A stretch of DNA of 64,000 nucleotides, from positions 661,268 to 725,267 of the forward strand of contig RPFO01000065.1 of the NCBI GenBank assembly GCA_009746045.1, given 5' to 3'. The translations under genes were made by a program, and so were the position numbers. The DNA is from Mesostigma viride (Eukaryota > Streptophyta > Mesostigmatophyceae > Mesostigmatales > Mesostigmataceae). The notes under the pieces were generated by a model. That model saw nothing but the letters and a program-made list of their open reading frames with translations. It was not told the DNA's origin and searched no databases. How positions within the stretch are numbered: position 1 is the stretch's first letter; each line of letters starts with the position of its first letter. This document shows, in pieces, positions 1 to 64,000 of the stretch.

Positions 1-451
1 CAAACAGAAGCTGATGCTGGCGCCTGTCAGATACGGCCCACGTAGTTGCAACAATTTCTTGGCCGAACGGCACCAATGTTGGCCATACAAGCCGTGCTCC
101 ACGACCCCCGAATGCCAGCATAATGGGTTCAGGGCCATGGAGGGAGAGTGCAGGAAAAGCAGGTTGCAGATGAATGTGCACCGCTACAACAGTAGCTGGT
201 GGCAGAACAGGCATCACCCATTCGTGGCATCACCCATTCGTGGGGAATCATCCCGCATGAGTCACACACCAAGCATGGGAAAAAAAGAAAATCTCCTCTC
301 CGCAAGCGGACATGAAGCAGAAAATGCAACCAATTCCCAAAGAGGTGTGGGTGGGCACTGGCCAACATCTCCTGCTAACGCTGCCTCCAAGTCAATCTGC
401 CTCCTCGTTCTCCCACGTAGAGGACAGTGACACATCGAGGGAGCCACCCAC

Positions 452-3400
452 CTGCAGCAGCGGGCAGCTGGGTCGCCGCGTATCATACAGCAGCACACAA
501 TCCTGCGTGGCGACACCGAACAAGAAGCAAGGAGCCGCGCCCGGTGGCCGCTCCCACATGGTTCCCAGAGCGTGGAGGCGGGGTAGGCTACGGGAGGAGA
601 GCTGGTGGAGCCAGCTGGCCTGACCGCGCTCCGGCACGTAGCTGTCCCGATCCAAATCCACCAGGACATTACCCGCAGGACGGGGCATGCCGGGGGAGGC
701 AGCAGAACCATCATGATGGCTGGAGGCATCTGAGGCAACCCCCCCCCGCCGCTCCCTCAAGTCTACGAGGGAGGCCCCCCGCCGGTTCGCCAGCACAAGC
801 GTGCGCGGGTGCGCGCCGTACTCGCACCGCCACCACTCCTCGGCACCACCGCGAGGGCCGCTCGTTGGTACGGCACTGCCAGAGGCACCATCGGCGGAGC
901 GGGTCCCTCGGTCAAGGCAAGGGGCGGTACTTTTGAGGCATTGTCCGACAGCGCGCGTGGCTACGCATGCCGGCGCCCAGGAGGGCCGTGCTGTGCCAGG
1001 GAGGAAGGTAGTTTGGGGACGGTCCTCAGAAGTTAATGGATCCTCGGTTTGGAAGGTCACGTCCACCGCTTGCAGCACACCGCCCTCCGTCACCGTCGCC
1101 AGCTCGCCCGTCAGGTGAGGGTTCCAGGTGACCTGGAGCGGCGTGCATTGCGCGATTCAGATAACGCGTACGCTTATGTCAGTGTTTCATGAGAGCTTAC
1201 TTGGTCTTTCATGAGAGCATACTTGGACTTTCATGAAAGCTTATTTGGTGTTTCATGAGAACGCGGCTGCGTTGTACCCACCTGTGATGTGCCCACCTTG
1301 CTCAGGTGCACCGATGAAAATGCCAGAAGCCACGATGCAACATAATCTAGCAGGGTGAGGCAAACATGGGAAGCTTCTTATCCTGCCGCCATCTGGCGGT
1401 GGGAGGGGTCCATATGGGGCCGAAACAAAAGGTTGTGGCACACAAGGTGAGGGCACCAGCTTTCACTATGCCGAACACTGACTCAGGCTGTGGATACCCG
1501 CCGCACAACGCCACGCCTGATGGGGACACAACGCCTGATAGGGACACAGCTCCTGATAGGGACACAGCTCCTGATAGGGACACAACGGGATAATGGGGAC
1601 AAATGGTCGCAGAAACAAGTGCACACGTGCACATGGGGCGACCCTGTTTCTTGGCGGCTGCCTACATCTATGAATGTTTCAGGCCTCCGTTGGTAGGGAC
1701 ATAGAGCATATGATGGTCCCTGTGCCTGCCGCCCAAGGATGTGAAAAATGCTCAGCCCACCGATTCGGCCCTATTAGTGCAGTTTGCAAGCGAGTTATTC
1801 GGACAGCAACGCCGGCAACCAGCCCGCCCCAACAAGATCCCGAGTTTTCCTCCGTCATGATGCTGGCATCATAACGTAGCCGTGGCCGACACCCCCATAT
1901 GTAATGATGGGGGAGTCGGCGTTTTGAACGAGAACGTGGGATTGGTCCACATAGGAACAATGCAGCCTCGCGGACAGAATTGTTGGCATAAGTTGCGAGC
2001 GTGCAGGAGGTCCCCATGCCCACATGACAGAGGCAGCTATGACCTGGCACCGGTGGCCTCTGGTGTGGCAGCAAGCACAGCCAGGCCAAGAGTGTGCCAC
2101 TGCATAGTGTGGCGAAAAAAATTTGCTGTGGACTCACATGTGCCAGCGCTTGCTGGTACTGCAGCCGCGCGATCCGTTGTAATGCCGGCGGCACGTAAGC
2201 CTCCTGCGACACGTTGCACATGAGAGAGTCATAAGGCATTGAAGAGGCCGCCTTCGCAATCAACCATGAACTCGGCGATCATGTACACCATATCATAAGT
2301 ATACCTCCCGGTGAACATTTCGGCATGTACCTGCACCTCATGCCATTCATGAACTCCATGCCTTACCTCGTCTCTTCGGACATATCGCTCTCCAAGGTAA
2401 GGGGGCGGGTCGCTCACCAGAGAAGCGGCGGGGTAAGGACAGCGCCACACATCGCATGGTGGGCTTAAGCGGCAGAGAGGAAAGAAGGGGGGGGGGGGGG
2501 AAGAGCGCACAGAGAGGGTATTCTTTCCATGGGATGACGGGCAGAAAAGCTGCAGCATGGGGCACGCGAAGAACGATGGCTGCTCGGTTCATGTGCCAAA
2601 AAATGCACCGATGGAATCAAGGAGCCCAACAGCAGCGCACCCTACAGCAGTGCACCCTACAGCAGCGCACACTATAGTGGCAGTGCACCTGGCAGTGTAC
2701 TGCAGCCTATAGCATGCGGGTAATCATCGGCATGCGGCCTCTGCCCGCTGGAGTAACGTGGGACGTTGCACGACAGGGAAGAGGGAAATGCAGGCATGCA
2801 ACTGACAGGCATCCATCCCCCCATCTCATCGTAGATGTCGCACATTTGTGGCCTGCTGCCAAACATGATCTTCTGCAGCTACCTTCCCCCCCCCCCTCTA
2901 CACAGAGACACGGCGATGATGACATGGCTGTGGCCAGAGCATCACAGCGTCGCAAGGCCGCCACTTTGCCACGTTGGGTTCCACTTGTAGCGCGCGCACC
3001 TCGTCGCCGTACACGTCCATGGGGGGCTGGGGGCCGCGCATCACGAACAGCGCCGATGTGTACAGGGTGCGCGCCGCCAGCAGGCCCACAGCACCTGAGG
3101 GCTCAAGCACGGCCGCGGGGCCGGTGCCGGTGACCAGGGCGGTGGAGGCGCCATCAAAGGTGGAGCATATCTGGGGGCATAGCAGCAGGGGGGAAAGGGG
3201 TTTGGGGTAAACACGGCATGGTTGCAAGTACGTGTCGTGCACAGGTTATCCTGGTATTAGGCCGTGAGTGTGGGGGAAGTAGTGCCCATGGGATGGTGTT
3301 TGCCAGAATAACAACCAGCTGTCACCGCCTCGCATGAAGTAACATGCGAGGGTACATGGGGGGGTAACTTACACACCCTATGCTTGCGACCACTAGGTGG

Positions 3401-7213: not shown

Positions 7214-14127
<6,914 letters not shown>

Positions 14128-17322: not shown

Positions 17323-19396
17323 CCGCTGGAGCTGGAGCTGTCCAGACTCCGGCTGGAGCTGGAGCTGGAGCAGGAGCTGGAGCTGGAGCTGGAGCTGGAG
17401 ATGGAGCTGGAGCTGGAGCTGGAGCTGGAGCTGGAGCTGGAGCTGGAGCTGGAGCTGGAGCTGGAGCTGGAGCTGGAGCTTGAGCTGGAGCTGGAGCGGG
17501 AGCGGGGGCTGGAGCTGGAGCTGGAGCGGGAGCTGGAGCTGGAGCTGGAGCTGTCCAGAGCTGGAGCTGGAGCTGGAGCTGGAGCTGGAGCTGGAGCTGG
17601 AGCTGGAGCTGGAGCTGTCCAGAGCTGGAGCTGGAGCTGGAGCTGGAGCGGGAGCTGGAGCTGGAGCTGGAGCTGGAGCCGGAGCTGGAGCTGGAGCTGG
17701 AGCCGGAGCTGGAGCTGGAGCTGGAGCTGAAGCTGAAGCTGGAGCTGGAGCTGGAGCTGGAGCTGGAGCTAGAGCTTGAGCAGTGGAGCTGGAGCTGGAG
17801 CTGGAGCTGGAGCTGGAGCTGGAGCTGGAGCTGGAGCTGGAGCTGGAGCTGGAGCTGGAGCTGGAGCTGGAGCTGGAGCTGGAGCTGGAGCTGGAGCTGG
17901 AGCTGGAGCTGGAGCTGGAGCTGGAGCTGGAGCTGGAGCTGGAGCTGGAGCTGGAGCTGGAGCTGGAGCTGGAGCTGGAGCTGGAGCTGGAGCTGGAGCT
18001 GGAGCTGGAGCTGGAGCTGGAGCTGGAGCTGGAGCTGGAGCTGGAGCTGGAGCTGGAGCTGGAGCTGGAGCTGGAGCTGGAGCTGGAGCTGGAGCTGGAG
18101 CTGGAGCTGGAGCGGGAGCGGGAGCTGGAGCCAGGGAGCGGGAGCTGGAGCTGGAGCTGGAGCTGGAGCTGGAGCTGGAGCTGGCCGGAGCTGGAGCTGG
18201 AGCTGGAGCTGGAGCTGGAGCTGGCCGGAGCTGGAGCTGGAGCTGGAGCTGGAGCTGTCCAGAGCTGGAGCTGGAGCTGGAGCTGGAGCGGGAGTTGGAG
18301 CTGGAGCTGGAGCCGGAGCTGGAGCTGGAGCCGGAGCTGGAGCTGGAGCTGGAGCTGGAGCTGGAGCTGGAGCTGGAGCTGGAGCTGGAGCTGGAGCTGG
18401 AGCTGGAGCTGGAGCTGGAGCTGGAGCTGGAGCTGGAGCTGGAGCTGGAGCTGGAGCTGGAGCTGGAGCTGGAGCTGGAGCTGGAGCTGGAGCTGGAGCT
18501 GGAGCTGGAGCTGGAGCTGGAGCTGGAGCTGGAGCTGGAGCTGGAGCTGGAGCTGGAGCGGGAGTTGGAGCTGGAGCTGGAGCTGGAGCTGGAGCTGGAG
18601 CTGGAGCTGGAGCTGGAGCTGGAGCTGGAGCTGGAGCTGGAGCTGGAGCTGGAGCTGGAGCTGGAGCTGGAGCTGGAGCTGGAGCTGGAGCTGGAGCTGG
18701 AGCTGGAGCTGGAGCTGGAGCTGGAGCTGGAGCTGGAGCTGGAGCTGGAGCTGGAGCTGGAGCTGGAGCTGGAGCTGGAGCTGGAGCCGGAGCTGGAGCT
18801 GGAGCTGGAGCTGGAGCTGGAGCTGGAGCTGGAGCTGGAGCTGGAGCTGGAGCTGGAGCTGGAGCTGGAGCTGGAGCTGGAGCTGGAGCTGGAGCTGGAG
18901 CTGGAGCTGGAGCTGGAGCTGGAGCTGGAGCTGGAGCTGGAGCTGGAGCTGGAGCTGGAGCTGTCCAGAGCTGGAGCTGGAGCTGGAGCTGGAGCTGGAG
19001 CTGGAGCTGGAGCTGGAGCTGGAGCTGGAGCTGGAGCTGGAGCTGGAGCTGGAGCTGGAGCTGGAGCTGGAGCTGGAGCTGGAGCTGGAGCTGGAGCTGG
19101 AGCTGGAGCTGGAGCTGGAGCTGGAGCTGGAGCTGGAGCTGGAGCTGGAGCTGGAGCTGGAGCCGGAGCCGGAGCTGGAGCTGGAGCTGAAGCTGGAGTT
19201 GGAGCTGGAGCTGGAGCTGGAGCTGGAGCTGGAGCTGGAGCTGGAGCTGGAGCTGGAGCTGGAGCTGGAGCTGGAGCTGGAGCTGGAGCTGGAGCTGGAG
19301 CTGGAGCTGGAGCTGGAGCTGGAGCTGGAGCTGGAGCTGGAGCTGGAGCTGGAGCTGGAGCCGGAGCTGGAGCTGGAGCTGGAGCTGGAGCTGGAG
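17323..19396. repeat. GGAGCT hexanucleotide satellite, about 2.07 kb
   Basis: About 345 copies of a 6 bp unit carry sparse variants: GGAGCG, GGAGCC, TGGAGTT, and a recurring 'ctgtccagagctgg' interruption at about 17551, 17613, 18257 and 18960. All six frames are open because the unit lacks stops, giving false ORFs of more than 700 codons. Confidence 0.97.
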
Positions 19397-29352: not shown

Positions 29353-32300
29353 TTACCGCCTCTTCTGGATCTCACTCAAGAACACATCGTTGAACTTCTC
29401 CACCATGCCCGGGTGCTTGCCGCAGATCAGGTTGCCATCCACGGTCAGCTCTGCCGTGCCCTCGCCCTCGTACTGCACGTTGCCACCCGCCGCCGTGACG
29501 TCACCGACACTGATGTTTCCGAATCACACCAACACACAAAGGAGTAGCATACATGGCAGGCAGATCACATGAAGTCGGTGCCTTTTTTAGAATGCATGCC
29601 CACGCATTTCTAAGCATGCAAGGCAGTGCAGACGATGACTCGCTGGGCATCGGTGTGTGGTGGCGCCTTTAGACTGTCCGTCGCTACTTGTGACCCATGA
29701 GTGCCTCTGATGCTGGACAAGCCTCTGCTGCTGACATCGCACGTGAAGCCAGCCAGGGTGAAAGTAAGCAGCCGATGGTAACCAGTCATCATCCCAGGCA
29801 CCGACAAGGCCTAGCACATCCATAAACTTATGGTTGTAGCTGTAGGGGCCTTCCACGCTGGGTTTGATGCAACCAATTTAATTGGGCACGCCGGTCACTG
29901 GACCGGTCCCTGTACTGTAAAATTGTCTGGAGCCACCCTTATGTCCTGACCAATTTCCTTTCCCCAAGTTACGAGGACGCGGGCAGTCTGTCGTCACGTT
30001 GTGAGCTACTATGGGCTACTACGTACTTGGCCAACGACACCAATTTCGGCCTGTCCCACCCCAAAAGGGGGAAATTGGTTTTGCCCAGCCAAAAGTACGG
30101 ACAGATCTGAACTTTTTGAGGAAATTGGTGACCAGCGTGGAAGGGTCCGGACCTCAAATTGGAATACCGTGCCCCAGCGTGGAAGGGCCTGGACGAAATA
30201 GGTCGTATACCCCTAAAAAAAGTTGGTCCGCACCCAGCTGGAAGGCCCCATAAACCTATACAGCACAATCGGAATCACTCGTGTTGTTTAACACGCTTGG
30301 CGTTGCTTACACTTAACTCTGCTGAGTTTTCTAACTCCTCGCCTCGGCCCCCCCCCCCCCCCCCCCCTCACCTCCAAACTATACATGTGAAGGCTATACC
30401 CATGTCCACAACAGAAGCCAGCTGGCCAAGCATTAAAAAGAATTGTCATAACGTCACTTACATGTTGTGCGCACAGGTGACCTGATGCAGCACGTGTGGC
30501 GAAGACCGACCGCAGGAGGATGGGCGTAAACAGACGAAACAGGCACCCGCCAGCATGGCCGCAAAACACATACAGTCAGCAATTGCCATCCAGTTGATGT
30601 GTCAAGGGTTGGACTTCAAACCGGCTCACTTGAATGTCAGCAGCACATGCAACTGCTGCAGCGCCACCCGCATCCATGAGCTCTTTTCGCTGCAACGTGC
30701 CCTCAAACTAAGTGGACACCCCGGTTTCAACTCCACCGCAAGACCTCCAAGGAGGAAAGACAAGACAGGAAGCGAGTGCATCTCTTTCACCACCAACACA
30801 CTCGCGCACTGGGACGTGGAGGGCATGACATACACCTGGCAGGGTGCACGGGAGGCCATCGCGGCTACTCATCAAGGGGCCATCGCCTCACAGCCAGCAC
30901 ACAGCAGTATTCTCAGGTCCCACCTCGCCACTAGCACACGGCACAATTCTCAGGTCCCATCTCGCCACTAGCACACGGCACAATTATCAGGTCTCATATC
31001 GCCACTAGCACACGGCACAATTATCAGGTCCCATATCGCCACTAGCACACGGCACAATTATCAGGTCTCACCTCGCCACGGTTCTCTGTGCTTAGCGTAT
31101 TCGTACACAAGCGCAGAGTTTCGCATCTCTACGCATCTCTACGCTTGTTGGGCAGCCTCCGTTCTTCTTTATTCTCAACCTCCCACCAGCCCATGGCACG
31201 AGGGTTCCCACTGGGTGTCCGTGGGACGCGTCTGCTGCTTACCGTCACACTTAGCAGCTCACTGCTTACTGCTCACCGTCACGTCCCGTTTCCCAAACAT
31301 ACCCCCACCTGGTGCTCGCGAAGCAAGAGGGTGGGGTGCTCTAGAGCAACTACGCCCGCTCTGCATCCTGTGCAGTGTTGTGTGAGTTCATGGTGAGTGT
31401 GCATACATGGGGTTTGTGTGTGTGGGTATCCGGGGGTTGTGTGTCCACCGGGGTCTACAGTGTGTAAGCGCATGCGTGGAGGTCATGCGCGCACCTTCTT
31501 GCCCTTGAGCAGCGTGGGGTCTGCGCAGAAGAGCCACAGGCTGTGGCAGATGTGGCCAAACGGAACGTTCTGCGCAGCACATGGCCGAGAGAGGGGGCGG
31601 GCGGGGGTCGGGTTGGGGTGCAATCCCAGGCAGGGTCGCGCATGCACACCGCATGGCGTCGCAAGAAGTTAGTGAGTCGCGAGGGGTCCACAGGTGTCAC
31701 GGTGGAAGAAGCTAGTTACGGTGGCATGAAGCCAGAGCCATGCCGGTCAACAATAAGTCTCTCGTGGGTTCGACAACAGCTACAGGCAACACAGGCACAG
31801 GGGAAGCCATGGGGCACTACATCAGACGTCCTTAGCCAAAAAAAGTGCCGGGATCAAGGGGGGGCTTTCCCGAGCGGGGAGTCCAGCTACTCCAGCATGG
31901 CGTAACGCCCGCAAGCTGACAACTTCTATGTTGGCGCACTCCATCGGGCACCGCCCGGCTGCCTTGGGCCTGCACGGTTCCCACACCGTTAATGACAGCA
32001 GCCCCTTGCATCACCACGAGTCATGCCCCTGTGGGGATCACGCCCCGATGTCCCGGCCCCACCAACAACAGGGAATTTCTCCAAGGCCGCATCGTGCCCC
32101 TCCCACGCGGCACGCTGCACACCCCCCGCGCCGCGTGCTACAACGAGCATCATCAATTCGTTCCAACACGCCGTCCCCTAAGGGAAACACGGAGCACAGC
32201 AGTACCACTTCTCTATGTCCCTGCGCCATCCACAGACCATCGCAGACACGGCACCCCACCACGGAGCACCGCTCGCGCGCCTCACCTTGGCCATTCCCTG

Positions 32301-35300
32301 GCGGCAGAACTCGACACCTGGCGCGTCGCTCTTCTTGCCCTTCCACACCTTGACCTGGTAGCGCAGACGGTCCATCGCGTACGCGCCGATGACAAGGATG
32401 CCCGCGTAGTCCTCTGGCTTGACCTGGCGGCGTGGTAGGGGCCACAGGGGAGCAAGGAGCAATGGTCAGTTACCAGGGAGAGAGGGGCTTGACCTGGTGG
32501 CACAGCAAAACAAGACAAACACACAAACAATTTATGATAGTGGGACCATACATGATAGTCAGTTAGCAGGGAAAGAGGGGATTGACCTGATGCCGCTGCA
32601 GGGGCCATGGCGGTGAGGAGCCAGGGTGAATCATACAGGGGCTACCACAAGGGGGGGATCCGCAGGTAGACACCATGCTTACAAGGACACCTATGTCAAC
32701 AATCCCTCTGGGTTACAACAAGAACTTCCACGGCATTCAGCAGCACACCCACACACAGTCACCCACAACCAATCGCAGCTATCTTTGACCCGCTGGCGCA
32801 CGCCCCCTACCCCCCCCCCACAGCCCCCGCCCTGCATCACCGGCATGTGCAAGGCACCCACCTTGGTCACGCAGGTAGTGCAGAAGACCTCCTCCTCGAT
32901 GCGGCCGTCGGTCGGGTTGGAGGTGAACCGGATGCCGTCACCCCCCCACAGGTAGGAGACGTATTCGATATCATACCCGGCACGAGGGTAGTACTCGTTG
33001 TACGACCGGAACTCAAACGGGTCAAAGTGCTCCTCAATCAACACAGCGATCTTGCCCTTGCGGGGGCCCACCGCGGGCACGATCCCCTTGGCATTCGGCT
33101 TGAGCACGCCACCAGCCGACCCGCTGCTGCCGGTGGTTGTCCCGCTGCTGGTGCCAAAGTACATGTCGAAGAAGGTCTTGTAGACGTCGCGGAGGAAGTA
33201 GAGGTGTTCGTACTTCTTGTAGCAGCCGCCGCGGTCACCAGTGCGGATCCACACCACGTCGCCGTACGCCGTCATCTCACCCGTGTTGATGTCAAAGCAG
33301 ACCCAGTCAAAGGAGACATCTTCGCCGCTGAAGGTCACGCGGGGCCACGTCATGCGCACGCGCGGGTTGGCCAGCATCGCCCACCAGGAGGACTCGTAGA
33401 CATTGCCCTTGCCGCGGCCCAGCCAGTAGCCCTTCAGGCCGTCGGGGGTGGGCACCGCGCTGATGCTGCTCTCGCTGTCGTAGAGCGAGTCCTTGGTGAA
33501 GTACATCAGCTCGTCGCGGTACTCATTGAAGAGGACCTGGGGAGCAAATAGGCAGGATGACAGGTAAGGATACAGGAAGGGATGAGGAACATGTGCTTCT
33601 TCATAAGCTCGCCAGAGAAGTCGTTGACCAGAACATCCTCCTGGTCACTCACTATGAGCCCGGTCTACTCTCTTATGCGAACATCCAACCATGGGTTCAC
33701 TCACTCCATCAACCCAGGCCATCACTCAATCGCGAGGCAAAGGTACGCACCATGGGCACACTGTACTCCTGCATGGTGCCGTCATTCCAGCACACCGATG
33801 GCGTTGCTGCCAGCAATGCCAGCCGGTCGTCCTACCCGTATCCAACGTGACCCCCTGTACTCCTTGGTATCATCATACCACTTTGCCCGTTCAAGCGCTC
33901 CTCCTGAGTCACCACAAGCCCTCTCCATCCTTCCACCCACTGCCACAGTTCCTCACGAGCAGAAAGAAAATGTCGCCCAAAAGGGTGCACCCCCTCACCA
34001 TCAGCCTTCGGCACTCCTCCTTGATACCATCCTACGCCACCATCATGCTGCTACCAACATACGGTCCATCGACCCCGTTGCCGTGACCCACCGTGAGCCC
34101 GCTGTACTCCTCCTCCACTCCGTCGATGACGAACGTCTTGTTCTGCTTGTCGCCGTCACGCAGCGCCTGGCAGTGCGTGAGCCACCAGACCTTGTTCTCG
34201 TTCTCCACGGTGAGCGGGTTGCCGTACGAGCCGCGGATCTTGGACAGTGGCGTGTTGCGCTCCGTACGGCGGTAGATGCGGATGCCCTGGATGCGCAGCG
34301 CGTCCTCGATGATGAGAGGCGGGCGGCGGTCCGCCTGGTGGTCATGTGATAGGGGGGCCACACACATTAATTACAGCATGCAGTGCAAGCGGTGGGCATA
34401 ATGCACATTTAGGGGCATTCCTTGCTGGGTCATTGTCAAGAGGCGATGCCAGGTGGGCACAGAGTGTGAGCCATCCACGCGGCGAGATACGAGGGCATTC
34501 GGCACAAGCCAATTCGGCGGCGCGGGCACATGCGCATCCAGCACAAAGGAGATAGCCAACCAGGTGAGGCGGGTAAAAGCTTTCGTCTCTTACGTTCACC
34601 CTAGCAGCCGCGAACCGGGCAAAGGGAGTCCACCTGCTCACCCCCCCGTACTGGCTGGAAAATCTGGTGAAGCGCATTCATACGCGGGTCATTATATGTT
34701 GTGAATCTTTGCACATCGGCAGGCGGACGACGAGGCCAGGTAAAGGACCCTATTGGATATTGGATGAGAACCAAGAGGCAACTCTATAGGTTGCTCATAA
34801 CACCTGACAAGCGGGGAAAGGTTGCGCCCCTATTGCTAGCCTTCTGAGGTGAAAAACTGCTTATCCTCGCATACCGAGGTATGAGCCGTTTATGCTAGCG
34901 TACTGGGAGCATGGACTACGGGCTACGTATACCAGCACACACATGCCGAGAGCGTGAGCTAATTATGCTACCATACCGAGAGCATGGGCCAGTGATGCTA
35001 CCACACTGAGAACGCCTGGACTAGCCATGTTACCACAGCAAGAGCTTGGGCTAGTAACGCTAACACACCGAGAGCGTGGAGAAGTCGGCGATGAAATCCT
35101 TGGACGCGAGTGAGGAGGGGATGGTCATGTTGGTGTTGGCAAACACGGCGCCCAGGTTCAGCTTGATGCTCGAGTAGTAGTTGCTGGCGCACGCAGGACC
35201 GGGGGGGGAGGCAGAGTGGGGGTAAGGCCCGGGGGGGGGGGGGGAGGATGGGCAGGGAAGCACGGCCAGGCAGAAGACGAGTTGAGAAGGAGGGAGGGGG

Positions 35301-45091: not shown

Positions 45092-48026
45092 ATGGCCGAC
45101 AAAAAAGGAAACTATGAGGATGCTGATGCAGACGGGAACGGCCGCATCACCGAGCCATTTCTCTCGCCTGAGGCAACCTCCAGCTCTGAATTTCAAAGAA
45201 GCAGCATACCGACTCGAGCATACTATATTCTGGTAGTGGAATTTTGCGAGCGACTATGCTTCTATGGCGCCAGGTATGGGGCGATCGTGGGCCTATCGTT
45301 ACTGCACGCACCTGCTAACTTCTTGACACGGACAGGTGAACATACACATACTTGCCCGTGCTTAGTGGTTGTGGTGACGCTATTGTACGGAGGGCATGAT
45401 GAGAAAAATTCCTGATGTGGGATGTTACCAGCGGTATGCGCCACGGGCGGCCGGCCAGACGGGTCATTTCCTACCCATTTTCGTAGCGCAGCAGCCCTTT
45501 AGATATACTCGGGCCTGTTGTCCACTAGGATTTTGTCACTCGCATTTTGGAATTGCAAGGCCAGTGCTTGGGTACGTGCCGTTTGCTGTCAATTTCATAT
45601 CTAGGGAAACACAGCGACGTCTCTCGGAAGCATGCACGCTTTCACCAACTTTCTGACTCAGATATCCATCCATGAGATGCAGCGCCAATTAGAACCCCGG
45701 ACACGTGCACTGTAGTCAGACATTTTGGTGAGAAGACGTGGGGGGGAAGTAAGTGGTGGGGGGAAGGGGGCGGGGGAGGGGCATCTTCTTTGGTTCCCTG
45801 ATTCCAACTGCTGAATATGCGTCACTTGCTGAGGCACCCACGCACATGCTTATGGGCAGCGAGACTGAGCAGTGCCTGCAGGTTAAGTGCTGCATTATGT
45901 GCAGGGATGTGGTAAGTTGAACCGGTGGCCATCTTAACCAATGCTTATTAGGTGTTTATCGTAACCGATGCCTATTAGGTGGTCATCTTAACAAATGCGT
46001 ATTGTGTGGTCATCGTAACCAATGCTTATTCGGTGGTCATCGTGACCAATGCTTACGACAGCAGGGCGGCCCGCCTTGCTTCAGTTGCTGCTCCCGCTCC
46101 CCGCCCCTGTAATATGTGCTACTCCCATACCTCCGAATTCCCATTCTTTGCGATCACCTTTGCCCGCCGTACTCCTTCTTCTATCTCCCGTCCCCGCCCC
46201 AAGCCAGGTCTTCATGCTGATCCCTCTTGTTGCCCCCATCTCCCCTGGTTGCCCTCGGTTTCGCCCGCTTGCCCCCATCCCCCACCCTACGCATGCCCCT
46301 GCCACCAGCCTGGTCTTCATGCGCTATATGCTGCAGATGCTGGGCCTGTCCATGGAGGTGGCCAACTTCGCCTCCTCCTGCTTCAATTTCTGGGCCTACT
46401 TCACCGCTCTGCTGGGCGGTTACACCGCCGATGCCTTGCTCGGCAAATTCCGCACCATCCTCCTCTTCGGGCTCGTCTACCTCGTCGGCATGACCACGCT
46501 GACCGCATCCGCAACACGGTACCTGTGGGTCGACTTCCCCACCACCGCGGGGCCAGTCGCCACATGGGCATTCTTCGCGGCCCTCTTCCTGGTGGCCACG
46601 GGGACGGGGGGTATCAAGTCGAACGTGTCCACCATGGTGGGCGACCAGCTAGCCGCATGCTCCTCGGAAGACATCGAGCGGGTGTTCCGCTGGTTCTACT
46701 GGTCCATCAACGCAGGGGCCCTGATTGGTCAACTCGTGTCGCCCACACTGAGCGACTTAGGACCCTTCAAGCGTGACTCAGCCGGGGACGTGATGGGTAC
46801 GTCCTTCTGGCTGTCCTACTTGTTCCCCACCGCCGCGTTCGCCGTCGGCATATCGGTGTTCATCGCAGGTGGCCGGCTGTACCGCCACGTCCCCCCCGCG
46901 GGCAGCATCCTGTCCACCTTCGCGGGCGCGCTAAATTCGGCGCGCACCAACCGGTCGCACGCGCCACGCCCGCTTGACCGCTCCCGCACGTACCTGTCGT
47001 ACATCGACCAAGCGCTGTACAGTCCTCAGGTGAGTGCTGTAGAGATTATTCTAAGTCGTTTTGTTGCACGTGAAAGTTATGCCTTTTAACGAAGCTGTTG
47101 TTGGTTGCACGTTCAATTGTGTGTTAACTAATGTCCAAGCAGTGAGCTCTAGTTTTTTAGGTGCACGGCAACATGTCGAGTCTTTCTCGCTGGGCATGGC
47201 ATCATCATTGCTGACTTTTATGTTCGCCTCGGCTCCACACCAATGCCCTTATGGGCTGCCTCATGGCCACACCCTTATGGGCCGCTCCCCACCACCACCC
47301 TTACCCCATCGGCAGGTGGTTGCGGACCTCCAGCGCGTGTTGGACACGTGCCGTGTGTTCCTCTTCTTCCCCGTCTACTGGCTGCTCTACAACCAGATGC
47401 AGTCCAACTTCATCGCACAGGGAGGGTGGCTGCGTCGCCCCAGCTGGCTCACCGCGGAGCAGCTCAACCTGCTCGACGCTGCCATCATCGTTATTCTTGT
47501 ACCCGTCTTTGACCGCTACATCTTCCCCGCGCTGCGCAAGCACCTGGGCGTCGCCCTGGGACCCATGGCCCGCATGACCGTTGGCTTCTGCCTCGCCGCG
47601 CTCGCGATGGTGTACACGGCTGTGTTGCAGCACGCGGTCGCCTCCGCTGGGTACTGGCGTCCGGACGGGTCCTACGTCGCCCCCGTTGACCAGCGAGTGT
47701 CCATTTGGTGGCAGGCAGTGCCGTACATGCTGATTGGGATTAGCGAGATCTTCACATCCATCTCCGCACTGGAGTTTGCGTACGGCGCTGCGCCGAAATC
47801 CATGCGCTCGCTCGTCATGTCGCTATTTTTATCCACCAGTGCCGCGGGCAGCGCGCTGGGCATGGTCATCGCGCCCTATTGCGCGCCACAGAACTTCACA
47901 GGTATCTTTTTGGGGTTTGGCGGCGCCATGCTGGCGCTCGCAGCCGTGTTTTGGGCGCGGTTCAAGAACTTTGCGCCGGGGGGGGAGCACGATGTGTACA
48001 CCGTAGTCTCGCCGAGTGAAGTTTGA
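45092..48026 (+). CDS. proton-dependent oligopeptide transporter (POT/PTR family)
   Basis: Three exons with matching phases: 45092-45273, 46309-47029 and 47316-48026 (TGA). The total is 1614 nt, 537 aa, close to the usual family length. Exon 1 carries a hydrophilic N-terminus and the signature VVEFCERLCFYGA, a version of the ExxERFxYYG motif of the first helix, which couples H+ to peptide uptake. Exon 2 holds further helices, including FASSCFNFWAYFTALLGGY, an ATGTGGIKSNVSTMVGDQ segment (the PTR GTGGIK region) and FRWFYWSINAGALIGQL. Exon 3 contains the C-terminal helices with PVYWLLYNQMQSNF and VPYMLIGISEIFTSISALEF, both typical. It is a plasma- or vacuolar-membrane symporter by family; the substrate cannot be read. 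It is divergent from the DJ-1-domain gene; the 7 kb transposon lies in their shared upstream region. Confidence 0.92.
45918..46062. repeat. about 33 bp x 4 minisatellite in intron 1 of the POT gene
   Basis: Units follow 'ggtggtcatcgtaaccaatg' plus 'cttatt', with variants. Confidence 0.85.
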
Positions 48027-58146: not shown

Positions 58147-59315
58147 CTGTCAATTGCGCAGTTACGAGACACGACCTTGCATGAAAACGGCGAGTAAACA
58201 GGGCGTTGTCCTTAGGCCCCCATGTATGACGTGGAATGTAATGGCCGTGACCACTTAACGAAAAGAGAACTCCCAATTATCATTCGAACCAATTGTTACT
58301 GCAAAATATTAACCCACCGCAAGCTGCTGCTTTATTATGACCCTTTCCGGGTGACCCTTTTCCCCAATTTCTATGCAGGACTGCGACTCCATGTCGGCAT
58401 GATGATGAGATATAAGTTATGCGATGCTACATTTGCGGCATTGTGTAACGGCCAAGGCGATTATCTTCTTCAAGTCACACACCAAACGTTGGTGGACTAC
58501 ACACTGGGTCACCGCCATCATAAACCGTTGAACTCCACCAGCTGCCGTTAAAAATCTAAGACACGCGTTTTCCCCGATATCCTTTTCCTACTGCACTAAG
58601 AGTGCGTGGGAACTTACGACCCTATAAATTTAATTAATGCGGGAACGTGCCAGCCATAAATTCTTGTTCATGTTGTGGCACGAAAGACTACTTGGGCCAA
58701 TTTCGGTATCTGACCCGAGTCACCTCAGGACTGAGAACACTGGCAATCAGCCATGTCATGGCATGACTCGATCTTTTCCCGCCACATGGCTCGCCCTCAA
58801 TGCAAGCGCAGGAGCCCGAAGATCAAGGTTCCCGAGACCTGTGGCTATAGTGTTTTTGTACTAGCTAGTACAGAATTTCTGGACATAACCGGCTGATTAG
58901 TGGTTCCTCCATCATCCAGCTCACCCGCGCAGGTGGGTAGTAGTAGGTCGCGAGAATAATCGGATGAATTTGCTGAGGATTGCCCATGCGGGATATCATC
59001 AAATTATATTTTGCTGGAGGTGGGAAATAATGGCTACGAGCAAGTCGCTGAGCAAGTAAACATAGCCGGCAGTAAGGGTTTGAAGGGAGAAGTGCTTAAA
59101 ACTTTCCCCCCCTCCCTGTTATTACTTTGCCCACGACATTAAGCTGGCCGGCGAGGTCGGAAATGTCAGTCATGATCCAAACCTCCGTGTGGGGAGCGAC
59201 CCATGCTGAAAATGTCGTCGGTGGGAGTACCGGCCCACGCAGTCAGAATCGGCGTAGCTCGGCCGGTCGGGTAGAGGCCTCACCATGTTTGAGGACAAGG
59301 GCGTCTAAGGGAGAT
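58147..59315. other. region between the divergent METTL23-like and SET genes
   Basis: It should hold the missing first METTL23-like exon and both promoters. An open frame at 58222-58551 (plus) is unrecognised and not called. A small AT stretch 'tttaattaatgcggg' is at 58628. Confidence 0.4.
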
Positions 59316-62300
59316 ATGTTTGCCTCTGCTGTCAATGGTATCCATGCTGGTCAACGGCTCGGCTGGTGCACGGTAACGCCCCGTCTTCAACCGGGACTGT
59401 CCTTGGGACGGCCTGGTCGCACTATGCCTCGCGCCGCGACCGCCGCCTTGGAGGCTTCGAAAGCGAACACGGAGCTCGTCAAATGGCTGATATCTAAAGG
59501 CCTCCCGCCGCAGGTACGCTCAACCGCCCAACCCAACCCGTTACGATATATTAGCATCGTAGCCTGCCAAAAACGCGCCTCTGGCCGTTCTGCCTCCGCC
59601 CATGCCGGTGGAAACGAGTGCGTCTGCTATACTGTTAAGTGTCGTTGTATGATAATTGGAGGCTAGTTTCCGTACCTAGCGTAAATGTCTGCGCACATAC
59701 CTAGCCAGCAGCTGCTTCAACATGTACACATCTAGATGTCATGTGCACTAAACTTTTGCACGCTGAGAGCTCCGGAGTGTCCGTGATAACTGCCACATGT
59801 TTTCGCCCAATTGCTCACTTTCTATGCACCTACCTGTATGTCTGTGATGTTTAAGATGTTGGACGCCGGTGATCGCTACGGCATCCTAGGCACCTGAACG
59901 GCATGTGTGGGTGCATTCGTGTCCTGTTCACACACGCAGCTGTCACCTTGGTCACTTTCCAGACTGCAGTGGACTGTATACTGCACGGCACACATGCACT
60001 TAAGCATGCACTGAAGGGCATGTTACTGTGAGGCGCAAGTGGGGTACCCCGCCATTGGAAAGGGATGGGACATTGAATAGAGCATGTGGTTTCAAATATA
60101 TAGCACCTGCAGTCGCTGCGGCATCTATCAGCCACTACCGCATGCACTATTCGTTCCTGCGCTGCTTCACCCATGGTTTCCGGCAAGCTGACGTGCGCCA
60201 GTGCAAGTTATCGCCACTCAGCCTCGATGGTAAAGTGAAGGGCGTCCTATGATCCGAGTCATTTGGCATGATTCCAGTCAGCGTCTCGCTAATACAACGC
60301 CAGGTTGTTTGATAGATAATATTCAAAGTTTAATGATGTTGCATCTCCGAAACCAGGGTATATTTCCTATTGATGCGCTGCTTGTGCATTGGCCTAATGT
60401 TGTGATTTCCTATTGTTATGCGACAGCCGAATGTACTGTTATGGCTGCATGTCGTGCATGGCCTTGTGTAATAATACGGCCATTCTTTTCCTGATCTTTC
60501 TTATGCATTCCGTGTATGATTTTCTTGTCCAACATTCCCTGTTGCAACATGTCGTGGGTGACACGCCGCATGCGTGAAAAACACACCGCATGCCCCCGCC
60601 CAGCGCGTGATCCTGGACAACTGCAAAGGGGAGGGCGTCGGCGTCATCGCAGACACACGGCTGGAGGTGTGTAGAGTGGACGGGGGAGATACGCGGGCGC
60701 ATGGCGGGAGGTATACAGCCATCGCTGGGGTGGGAGGGACCATGGGTTGTGGGCGCACATGGTGGGAGGTGCCCAACCATCGGTGGGTTAGGAGGGACCA
60801 TGCCTCGCCATGGGGTCTGTCTGCTTGGAGGTGCAGGTGACAGGGAGCTGCTGGGAATCAAGCGCATTGCTATGATCTGTGTAGTGTTACGTCACCGCCC
60901 CATCCCTGCTTCCTGCTCCTCTATCCATTGTATGTTCACACCCTGGCCCCTGCCCCTGCCCTCTGCTACCTTCTCTGCCCCTTCTCTTCTATTGCCATCT
61001 CGCCCCTGTCCCAGCCCAATGACGTCGCCATCCGCATCCCCGACAGCCTGGCCGTGACGTCGGTGGACGTCAACAAGAACCCCGTGCTGGCGGCCGCCGC
61101 TAAGGGTGAGCGCTGGTCGCGTGCCAGGTGTCACCCTGGTGCTTGCCCTGCTGGGCAGAGCATCTAGATAAACACCTTTCAAGCAACAACCATGCTGATG
61201 ACACGACATGCTTACTTGTGATGGCTTGTGATGGCATCGTGTGGCGTTTTATCTTTGGGTGCCATGGTCCCATGGCAAGAGGGCTTGATGTGGTGCTCTG
61301 CTCGGCGGGCTGCTGCGGCAGCAGGCCTGGTGGCGGTGGAGTGCGCCCAGCTGCTGGCATCCTCATGCTCTCACCTTGCTGCTTGCCGGTGGTGATGGTG
61401 ATGATGCTTACAAGGCGCACTGGCTGACACTGCGTAGCAGCGTCCCCACAGAAACTGTAGCAGCGACCCCACGGGAGGGCCCCATGCATCTTGTACAGTA
61501 CCGTGTCAGGCCGTACCTGGGGTGTTTCCATGGGTCTGGTAACCCATAGGTCACAACATACTTCCCACACTAGCAAACTAGGTCACAACATACTTCCCAC
61601 ACTAGCAAACTAGGTCACAACATACTTCCCACTCTAGCAAACTAGGTCACAACATACTTCCCACACTAGCAAACTAGGTCACAACATACTTCCCACACTA
61701 GCAAACTAGGTCACAACATACTTCCCACTCTAGCAAACTAGGTCACAACATACTTCCCAGTACGCGTACCAGGTCACAACATACTTTCCTCACTAGCAAA
61801 CTAGGTCACAACATACTTCCCAGTACGCGCACCAGGTCACAACATACTTCCCACACTAGCAAACTAGGTCACAACATACTTCCCAGTACGCGTACCATTA
61901 AACATACATGTGGTGATCACCATTATTGTACATGCTCGCGGATCACACTGCCCTCATTCAGCCCTCATTAAACCCTCATTCAGCCATCATTCTCCCTCAT
62001 CCACCTCTCCAGGGATGTCCCTCCTTCTCCTGTACCTACACAGGCCCTCCCGTTCCATTTGCTCGCGTCCCCTTTGACTCGCGCGCCCTAGTTTGCTCAC
62101 ATCCCCTTCGACCAGCGCGCCCTGGTTTGCTCTGCGGGCTCTTGTACGGTAGACCTGCCAATCAGCCTATTGTTTCATGACCTAAACCGCGCGCATACTT
62201 GGCTCTCACAATCCCTTTACCTCTGTCCCCTTCTTCCCCGCACACTCCTCCCCCCGCTGTTCCCCCTTTATTTCACCCCCTCCTGTCCCCACCACCAGGC

Positions 62301-63871
62301 CGCGGCGACATCATCGGCTTCACGCTGTGGCTGATGATGGAGCGCCTCAAGGGAGCGTCCTCCGAGTGGGCGCCCTACGTGGCCAGCTTGCCCAGCGAGA
62401 CCATGTCGCCGCTCCTGTGGACGCAGCAGGAGCGGGACGCGCTGCTCAAGCCGTGCTTCGCCAGAAGTAAGTGATGCAACGAATCGTAACGATGCCAGAA
62501 GTAAGTGATGCAACAAATCGTAATGATGCCAGAAGTGATGCAACGAATCGTAATGATGCCAGAAGTGATGCACTGAATCATGATGATGCCAGAAGTGATG
62601 CAACGAATCGTAATGATGCCAGAAGTGATGCAACAAATCGTAATAATGCCAGAAGTAAGTGATGCAACGAATCGTGATGACGCCAGAAGTAAGTGATGCA
62701 ACGAATCGTGATGATGCCAGAAGTAAGTGATGCAACGAATCGTAATGATGCCAGAAGTAAGTGATGCAACGAATCGTAATGATGCCAGAAGTGATGCACT
62801 GAATCGTGATGATGCCAGAAGTGATGCAACGAATCGTAATGATGCCAGAAGTAAGTGATGCAACGAATCGTAATGATGCCAGAAGTGTTGCAACGAATCG
62901 TAATGATGCCAGAAGTGATGCAACAAATCGTAATAATGCCAGAAGTAAGTGATGCAACGAATCGTAATGATGCCAGAAGTAAGTGATGCAACGAATCGTA
63001 ATGATGCCAGAAGTAAGTGATGCAACGAATCGTAATGATGCCAGAAGTGATGCACTGAATCGTGATGATGCCAGAAGTGATGCAACGAATCGTAATGATG
63101 CCAGAAGTAAGTGATGCAACGAATCGTAATGATGCCAGAAGTGATGCAACGAATCATGATGATGCCAGAAGTGATGGAACGAATCGTAATGATGCCAGAA
63201 GTAAGTGATGCAACGAATCGTAATGATGCCAGAAGTAAGTGATGCAACGAATCGTAATGATGCCAGAAGTAAGTGATGCAACAAATCATGATGATGCCTG
63301 GACAGGCCCTATTCCACGGGAAGTGAGTGGTGGACAAGCCTGGCTTTGCAGGGCTGAGGAGTGGCCAAGCCTTGCTTTTGCCAGGACTAACGGGTGGACA
63401 AGCCTTGCTGTGCCAGGGCTAAGGGTTGAGCAAGCCTTGCTTTGCTGTGGGGAGTGATGCTGCCGGGAGTAAGGAGCAGTTGACAGGCAACGCGTGGCGA
63501 GGAGCAAGCGCTTGGCAAGCCATGAAGGGTGGGACGGGGGTGATGGACAAGGCATGTGTCGCAGGTAGTGCGCGATGGATGGATGTTCTAGTTGGTTGGG
63601 TGTCCTCATGTCTGTGGTGCCAACTTCTTTCTGACCCATGTTATATGCATCGGCCCCGCCTGCCTTGCCCCCGTCTCCTGCCTTGACTGTCACCCCCCTT
63701 TGCCTTCCGCCCCCTTTCCTCTTTGCGGCCCCCTTCCCTTTTTCCCCTTGCCGAACCCTTCCCCTTCCCCTTTTCCTTCCCCGCTCACCAGAGGAGGCGG
63801 AGACGCGACTTAAGTCGCTGCAGGAGACGTTCAACGAGCTGGAGGCGACCGCCTTCTCACAGGACCGACAG
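59316..63871 (+). CDS. SET-domain lysine methyltransferase, Rubisco-LSMT/SETD3 class, 5' part (partial)
   Basis: Five exons with matching phases: 59316-59513, 60604-60666, 61015-61105, 62299-62466 and 63792-63871; the gene continues off the window. The 200 aa seen begin with a basic, hydroxylated, transit-like leader (MFASAVNGIHAGQRLG), then LVKWLISKGLPPQ and RVILDNCKGEGVGVIADTRLE. PNDVAIRIPDSLAVTSVDV, GRGDIIGFTLWLMMERLKG and SSEWAPYVASLP follow, ending with a helical ETRLKSLQETFNELEATAF. This is the N-terminal half of the split SET domain of the Rubisco large-subunit methyltransferase/SETD3 class, whose plastid members methylate Rubisco or aldolase; the substrate here is unknown. The ATG at 59316 was chosen because it opens the leader; in-frame ATGs exist upstream at 59163 and 59172. 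The catalytic Tyr and the substrate-binding domain lie beyond the right edge. Confidence 0.85.
61549..61903. repeat. 32 bp x 11 intronic minisatellite
   Basis: Units are 'aggtcacaacatacttccca' plus 'cactagcaaact', with a recurrent 'gtacgcgtacc' variant end. It lies in the intron between exons 3 and 4 of the SET gene. Units are contiguous with no spacers. Confidence 0.95.
62461..63294 (+). repeat. 26-unit minisatellite built on the 5' splice site of SET intron 4
   Basis: Each unit begins CCAGAAGTAAGTGATGCAAC (34 bp, 14 units) or lacks four bases, CCAGAAGTGATGCAAC (30 bp, 12 units). The first unit's CCAGAA is the real exon end (62461-62466) and its GTAAGT is the real donor. Variant units ('cactgaatcgtgatg') recur at units 4, 11 and 19, showing higher-order duplication. 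Confidence 0.95.
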
Positions 63872-64000
63872 GTGAGGGTGCAGCGCCTTGTCTCAGGACG
63901 GACAGATGAGGGTGCAGCGCCTTGTCACAGGACGGACAGATGAGCGTGCAGCGCCTTGTCACTGGACCGACAGGTGAGGGTGCAGCGCCTTGTCACAGGG
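63861..64000 (+). repeat. 34 bp x 4 minisatellite spanning the 5' splice site of SET exon 5
   Basis: Units start at the last 11 exon bases (AGGACCGACAG) followed by GTGAGGGTGCAGCGCCTTGT. In units 2 and 3 the donor GT is AT; in unit 4 it is GT again. The array reaches the window edge. Confidence 0.95.

Follow-up and report, generated by a model that had tools for sequence, protein, structure and literature searches.

How can a gene carry a minisatellite that repeats the end of one of its own exons, together with the adjoining splice donor? The question is raised by a stretch of Mesostigma viride DNA, 64,000 nucleotides long, that we refer to as the window. Near the end of the window, exon 4 of a methyltransferase gene, Mv10632, runs into an array of 26 units. 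Boundary-spanning tandem repeats were termed 'mirages' in the amphioxus genes Adh3, BflGb6 and BflGb9, the last two being globin genes, and are reported to leave splicing undisturbed and to be unstable in length (PMC3087553). The exon 4 array is a member of this known kind. Our preferred explanation, to which we assign a probability of about 0.75, is that it arose by junction-spanning tandem duplication, and is tolerated since the 5'-most donor is used.

Host gene and position of the exon 4 donor

The exon peptide matched a single protein, M. viride Mv10632 (its EukProt name; jgi/Mesvir1), with 100% identity over 55 residues. This protein (P0001) has 538 amino acids and is a Rubisco-LSMT/SETD-type methyltransferase. 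A search with the full-length sequence, in which 7,996 candidates were scored, returned at least 58 proteins at E <= 1e-10, Mv10632 itself included. Among the matches listed, every one of these at least 58 proteins has the Rubisco-LSMT substrate-binding domain (PF09273). Two exons alone showed weak similarity to solved SETD6, SETD3 and RLSMT chains (E 0.11-0.48). A Pfam search with an 83-residue exon piece gave no match, and no relative of the exon peptide was found in a scan of viral contigs. Exons were placed in the window as follows.

59163-59513, plus strand: exon 1 of Mv10632 (100% match to P0001 residues 1-117)
60604-60666, plus strand: exon 2 (unique GT/AG solution)
61015-61105, plus strand: exon 3 (unique GT/AG solution)
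62299-62466, plus strand: exon 4, with its last 7 bases forming the start of array unit 1 (protein match and GT/AG solution)
63792-63871, plus strand: exon 5, with donor CAG|GTGAGG (protein match and GT/AG solution)

Only one GT/AG solution reproduces residues 1-250 of the annotated protein. Hence, exon 4 should end at position 62466, a placement made firm by the gene model and by homology. Splicing from the first donor would agree both with the annotated protein and with ten chosen homologues, which align across the junction (FAR|KEAET) without a gap. A previous sequence-only reading of this DNA claimed that the array starts inside the exon, and that the functional donor belongs to its first unit. 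This appears sound, given the exon end fixed by the annotated protein. Extending the placement into the following sequence of the same contig gave 12 placed exons. In the readable part of that sequence, we found neither residues 252-285 nor residues 460-502. A separate array, at positions 61547-61885, sits within intron 3.

Structure and growth of the exon 4 array

The main features of the array are listed here.

62460-63298, plus strand: junction-spanning minisatellite of 26 units (TRF and unit split), the sole place of this repeat in the assembly
62467-62472, plus strand: GTAAGT of unit 1, the donor of the annotated gene model
62472-62474, plus strand: TGA in frame with exon 4, which a later-donor or intron-retaining transcript would meet (translation)
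62682-63193, plus strand: two successive 256-bp blocks, each of 8 units (unit comparison)

TRF gives a period of 34, with 26.1 copies and a score of 1167; a second period, of 256 bp, is also reported. Splitting the array at GCCAGAA resolves 14 units that have GTAAGT (34 bp each) and 12 that lack AAGT (30 bp each). The shorter units read GTGATG in 11 cases and GTGTTG in one. Thus, the sequence-only reading was right to describe 26 copies of an exon end plus donor, and to count 14 intact junctions and 12 units that lost four bases. Two details are corrected: the exonic part of unit 1 is 7 bases (GCCAGAA, 62460-62466) rather than six, and one short unit departs from GTGATG. As in mirages, the repeat spans the exon-intron boundary, and splice signals are present in many but not all units (GTAAGT in 14 of 26). 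Minisatellites at exon boundaries in human duplicated genes (PMC2812944) have units of about 30 bp, which is like the array described here.

There are 13 unit types. The first (A) and last (M) are each present once, as are several inner types. Units 8-15 and units 16-23 correspond to the two 256-bp blocks, which differ at 7 positions. Identity is highest (0.942) when units that lie eight apart are compared. Hence, the array seems to have grown partly by duplication of 8-unit blocks. These internal duplications, in one assembly, suggest turnover. To locate related sequences, we used a 26-base unit probe, allowing up to 2 mismatches. This gave 14 matches in the 440-Mb assembly, all inside the exon 4 array, and the probe pattern read backwards gave none in the same assembly. 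Such confinement points to a local origin.

Could the array be a mobile intron (an introner), or the trace of intron gain through tandem duplication? Both models involve repeats that carry splice signals. Introners are repeats that overlap splice sites, as here (PMC7789003), and intron gain by tandem duplication involves duplication across an exon-intron boundary, again as here (PMC4974935). We consider either origin extremely unlikely. Introners form many-locus families with inverted repeats, whereas the Mesostigma unit is confined to one array. Classic gain by tandem duplication results in a new intron, with a copy of the exon end expected directly before the acceptor. In Mv10632, an existing intron has been lengthened on its donor side; the array adjoins the donor and ends at 63298, 493 bp before the acceptor (63791).

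Junction-spanning duplication, our preferred explanation, would run as follows. First, a short duplication would have placed in the intron a second set of the final 7 bases of the exon, the donor, and 27 bases of intron. Units and 8-unit blocks would have been duplicated afterwards, in the manner expected of unequal exchange, until there were 26 units. All copies lie downstream of the original donor and the exon would stay intact while the spliceosome takes the 5'-most site, which is why donor-side copies might be tolerated. Selection would tolerate donor copies and remove tandem duplications inside exons. It may also remove more of the acceptor copies, which lie upstream of the real site. We infer the duplication mechanism, first-donor use in the cell, and near-neutrality of the array. 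Several observations count against this explanation, among them the survey's intron-interior control, a donor-acceptor difference that depends on the cut, and the near-absence of donor-motif enrichment (see below). Another lies in the array itself. Unit columns 1-10, which hold the junction, are the same in all 26 units; of the remaining 20 columns, 10 vary. For the first 9 columns, invariance has p = 0.012 (uncorrected). Neutrality alone does not predict this.

Consequences of using a later donor

The sequence-only reading stated that the spliceosome faces many equivalent donors. This holds up: 14 units read GAA|GTAAGT and are computed to pair equally well with the 5' end of U1, at -6.4 kcal/mol. 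For the short units, computed pairing is -2.5 kcal/mol in 11 and -3.7 kcal/mol in one. It was further proposed that a later donor would insert array sequence into the SET protein. Here, the translation says otherwise. In the frame of exon 4, unit 1 reads GCC AGA AGT AAG TGA. Consequently, with any of the 25 later donors, or with the intron retained, translation would end at codon 227, and the predicted product is a 226-amino-acid stub. Choice of donor would therefore be a choice between normal and truncated protein. Note that boundary repeats in the human genes are reported, with RNA support, to generate novel introns and alternative transcripts (PMC2812944), whereas later donors in the Mesostigma array have a predicted stop only.

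One reading of this arrangement is regulated unproductive splicing, in which occasional later-donor transcripts, containing the stop, tune the amount of methyltransferase, so that the array is kept by selection. The 14 equal donors, every later one leading to a stop, would suit such a device, as would the invariant junction core. We think it very unlikely, since similar copies at the donors of unrelated kinase and chaperonin genes (see below) suggest a general process, rather than a gene-specific device.

Junction copies elsewhere in Mv10632 and in other genes

The donor of exon 5 (63871/63872) is also inside an array, unrelated to that of exon 4.

63850-64000, reaching the window's end, plus strand: second donor array, of 34-bp units, including about 22 exonic bases of exon 5 (TRF and reading)

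In visible units 2 and 3 of this array, AT is found where the donor GT stood. Unit 4 retains GTGAGG, and a stop in the exon 5 frame (63941-63943) precedes this donor. Across the gene, TRF places 3 of the 11 donors that could be read in arrays, namely those of exons 4 and 5 and of the exon that ends at C1468:745008, together with 1 of 11 readable acceptors (C1468:744352). This rate is biased upward, since the gene was chosen because of the exon 4 array. At C1468:745008, the array has 3.9 copies of 27 bp, with four AG|GTGAGG. The acceptor array (C1468:744220-744360; L010:9221-9361) has three identical CTCGCAG|ACGTC sites, 45 bp apart. The 45-base insert, TSPAKMFAAIILCSQ, is open and in frame, so use of an upstream acceptor would add 15 or 30 residues. 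In the neighbouring PTR2 transporter gene (P0059), no TRF array was found at 2 donors and 2 acceptors.

We surveyed junctions in two gene families only, kinases and CCT/Cpn60 chaperonins, with donors placed without RNA. Kinase regions comprised 20 partial-domain exons, out of 135 matches, followed by 20 more regions (10 donor and 10 acceptor sides). For chaperonins, six genes supplied 33 donor regions and 20 acceptor regions, taken from 58 matches. All regions were chosen from match tables before the sequence was read. At each donor, we aligned the final 30 bases of the exon with the 300 intron bases that follow, and the null was provided by cross-gene alignments (2,952 pairs). For the first 20 regions, donors were assigned by visual inspection of the sequence. 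The remainder were assigned using a small weight matrix, for which these visual calls formed part of the training set, with three hand fixes (L050, L081, and L096). Of 63 donors, 56 were scored. Those left out had no clear donor near the match (L031, L037, and L045) or, as called, left too short a piece of exon in the stretch (L049, L070, L082, and L095). Similarly, 46 of 50 acceptors were scored, leaving out L045, L116 (none found), and the pair L046 and L048, in both of which the exon continues upstream. Some acceptor calls are doubtful, above all L117 and L119; these were retained.

Copies of the exon tail exceeded the 99th percentile of the null at 14 of 56 donors, the 99.9th percentile at 13, and the null maximum at 10. 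By sample group, at the same cut-off (13), these 13 donors divide as 5/17, 2/9, and 6/30. Exon segments further from the donor behaved differently. At the 99.9% cut, 0/56 copies were detected for both the -60 to -30 and -90 to -60 segments, the latter having 1/56 at 99%. The difference between exon tail and inner exon (13 versus 0 of 56) has p = 0.0001. For the first 30 intron bases, 4/56 passed their own 99.9% cut and 14 passed at 99%. An intron interior control (+60 to +90) gave 6/56, which is not significantly different from the exon tail (p = 0.13). Hence, we make no claim that the junction is a duplication hotspot. Copies of the exon tail lie 34-221 bp from the donor, and GT is kept in 8 of 13. 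Weaker copies, seen by eye at L047, L057, L076, L080, L086, and L088, are below the 99.9% cut and were uncounted.

At acceptors, copies of the exon head were found in 3/46 cases, all from the first kinase group (3/17, 0/10, and 0/19). The +30 to +60 control gave 1/46 (L117, a doubtful call) and the +60 to +90 control gave none. Comparing donors with acceptors, Fisher's test gives p = 0.028 at the 99.9% cut and 0.135 at the maximum cut. Such an asymmetry would follow if junction-crossing copies survive by use of the 5'-most donor, though the numbers are small.

The clearest case in the survey is chaperonin region L091, where the end of the exon and its donor reappear at 48-bp intervals. Here, the first insert preserves the frame and contains no stop, and the same is true of a 48-base insert at L100. 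Together with the open insert at the Mv10632 acceptor array, these cases fit a reading in which copied splice sites serve protein variation, by adding or removing residues. We regard this as quite unlikely in general, and it is excluded for the exon 4 array, where every later donor leads to a stop. Among the 13 copied donors, 8 have an in-frame stop ahead of the copy. Only 3 of the 13 inserts are multiples of 3, and one of these contains a stop.

Contig C1 was scanned at 17 spaced 10-kb stretches, using predicted coding segments and reading by eye. In a protein kinase exon with Pfam support (L013, about 6013, minus strand), the end GGAGACCGGCAGCT|GT appears again downstream, as part of a 52-bp repeat. 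An ABC-2 transporter exon (L021, about 3548, minus strand) is followed by an array of 5.6 copies of 54 bp, starting about 9 bases past the donor. This array resembles the donor side but has no exonic bases, and merely adjoins the junction. Arrays with donor motifs at L021:1836 and L025:4216 were uncounted, there being no convincing adjoining coding exon by eye. Across all minisatellites (106 arrays in 248 kb), GTRAGT is found in 2 arrays, versus 2.0-2.4 expected, and AGGTRAG in 4, versus 0.7-1.0 expected. With donor motifs hardly enriched, we rejected the idea that minisatellites here are generally donor-derived. Other features of the window are as follows.

395-1156, minus strand: TAF1C-like beta-propeller piece (Pfam)
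17352-19396: hexamer GCTGGA, 342 copies over 2 kb
32235-35194, minus strand: run of predicted exons with no Pfam match (coding prediction)
45092-48023, plus strand: PTR2 transporter Mv10630

Window arrays at 1185-1260, 10296-10394, and 45924-46055 were inspected and had no overlap with a confirmable junction. With 51 TRF rows in the 64-kb window, and intron interiors duplicated at a rate similar to that of exon tails, one array might simply chance to abut an exon end in a minisatellite-rich genome. We consider such a coincidence very unlikely. The next donor of Mv10632, a third donor, and an acceptor are also in arrays, and copies of the exon tail accompany 13 of the 56 donors sampled. Part of this reading survives, namely that duplication affects introns generally, with junctions not exempt. 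Most economically, short tandem duplications would be frequent in M. viride introns, and those crossing a junction would persist because taking the 5'-most donor leaves the exon whole.

Intron growth and splice site choice in Mesostigma

Compared with mirages in amphioxus, the array described here is long (26 units, versus 3 or 6 in the two haplotypes of BflGb6; PMC3087553), its host is a streptophyte alga, and junction copies are seemingly common across the host's genome. Among the open-access papers listed in our searches, we recognised no description of mirages in algae or plants. The M. viride genome paper gives a mean intron length of 1,142 bp, with repeats occupying 30.1% of intron space, and full-length cDNA of strain NIES-296 was sequenced; excerpts of that paper make no mention of junction repeats (PMC6947507). 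What appears to be new is the frequency of junction copies in M. viride, affecting about a quarter of the donors sampled.

A broader proposal, which we hold tentatively and at somewhat less than even odds, is that junction-spanning tandem duplication is a main, ongoing route of intron growth in M. viride. About a quarter of donors would have copies of the exon end, and donors would exceed acceptors, because the 5'-most donor is taken but a copied acceptor would be met first. If the sampled rate holds, M. viride gene models merit checking at many junctions. Choice among equal donors, and the lengthening of introns, are hard to study outside built constructs, and this alga supplies natural examples: a single intron with 14 identical donors, among them the annotated site, three identical acceptors in Mv10632, and L091, with its 48-bp recurrence and open, in-frame insert. 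If the proposal is true, the M. viride genome would be a natural, large-scale experiment on how the spliceosome chooses among identical sites.
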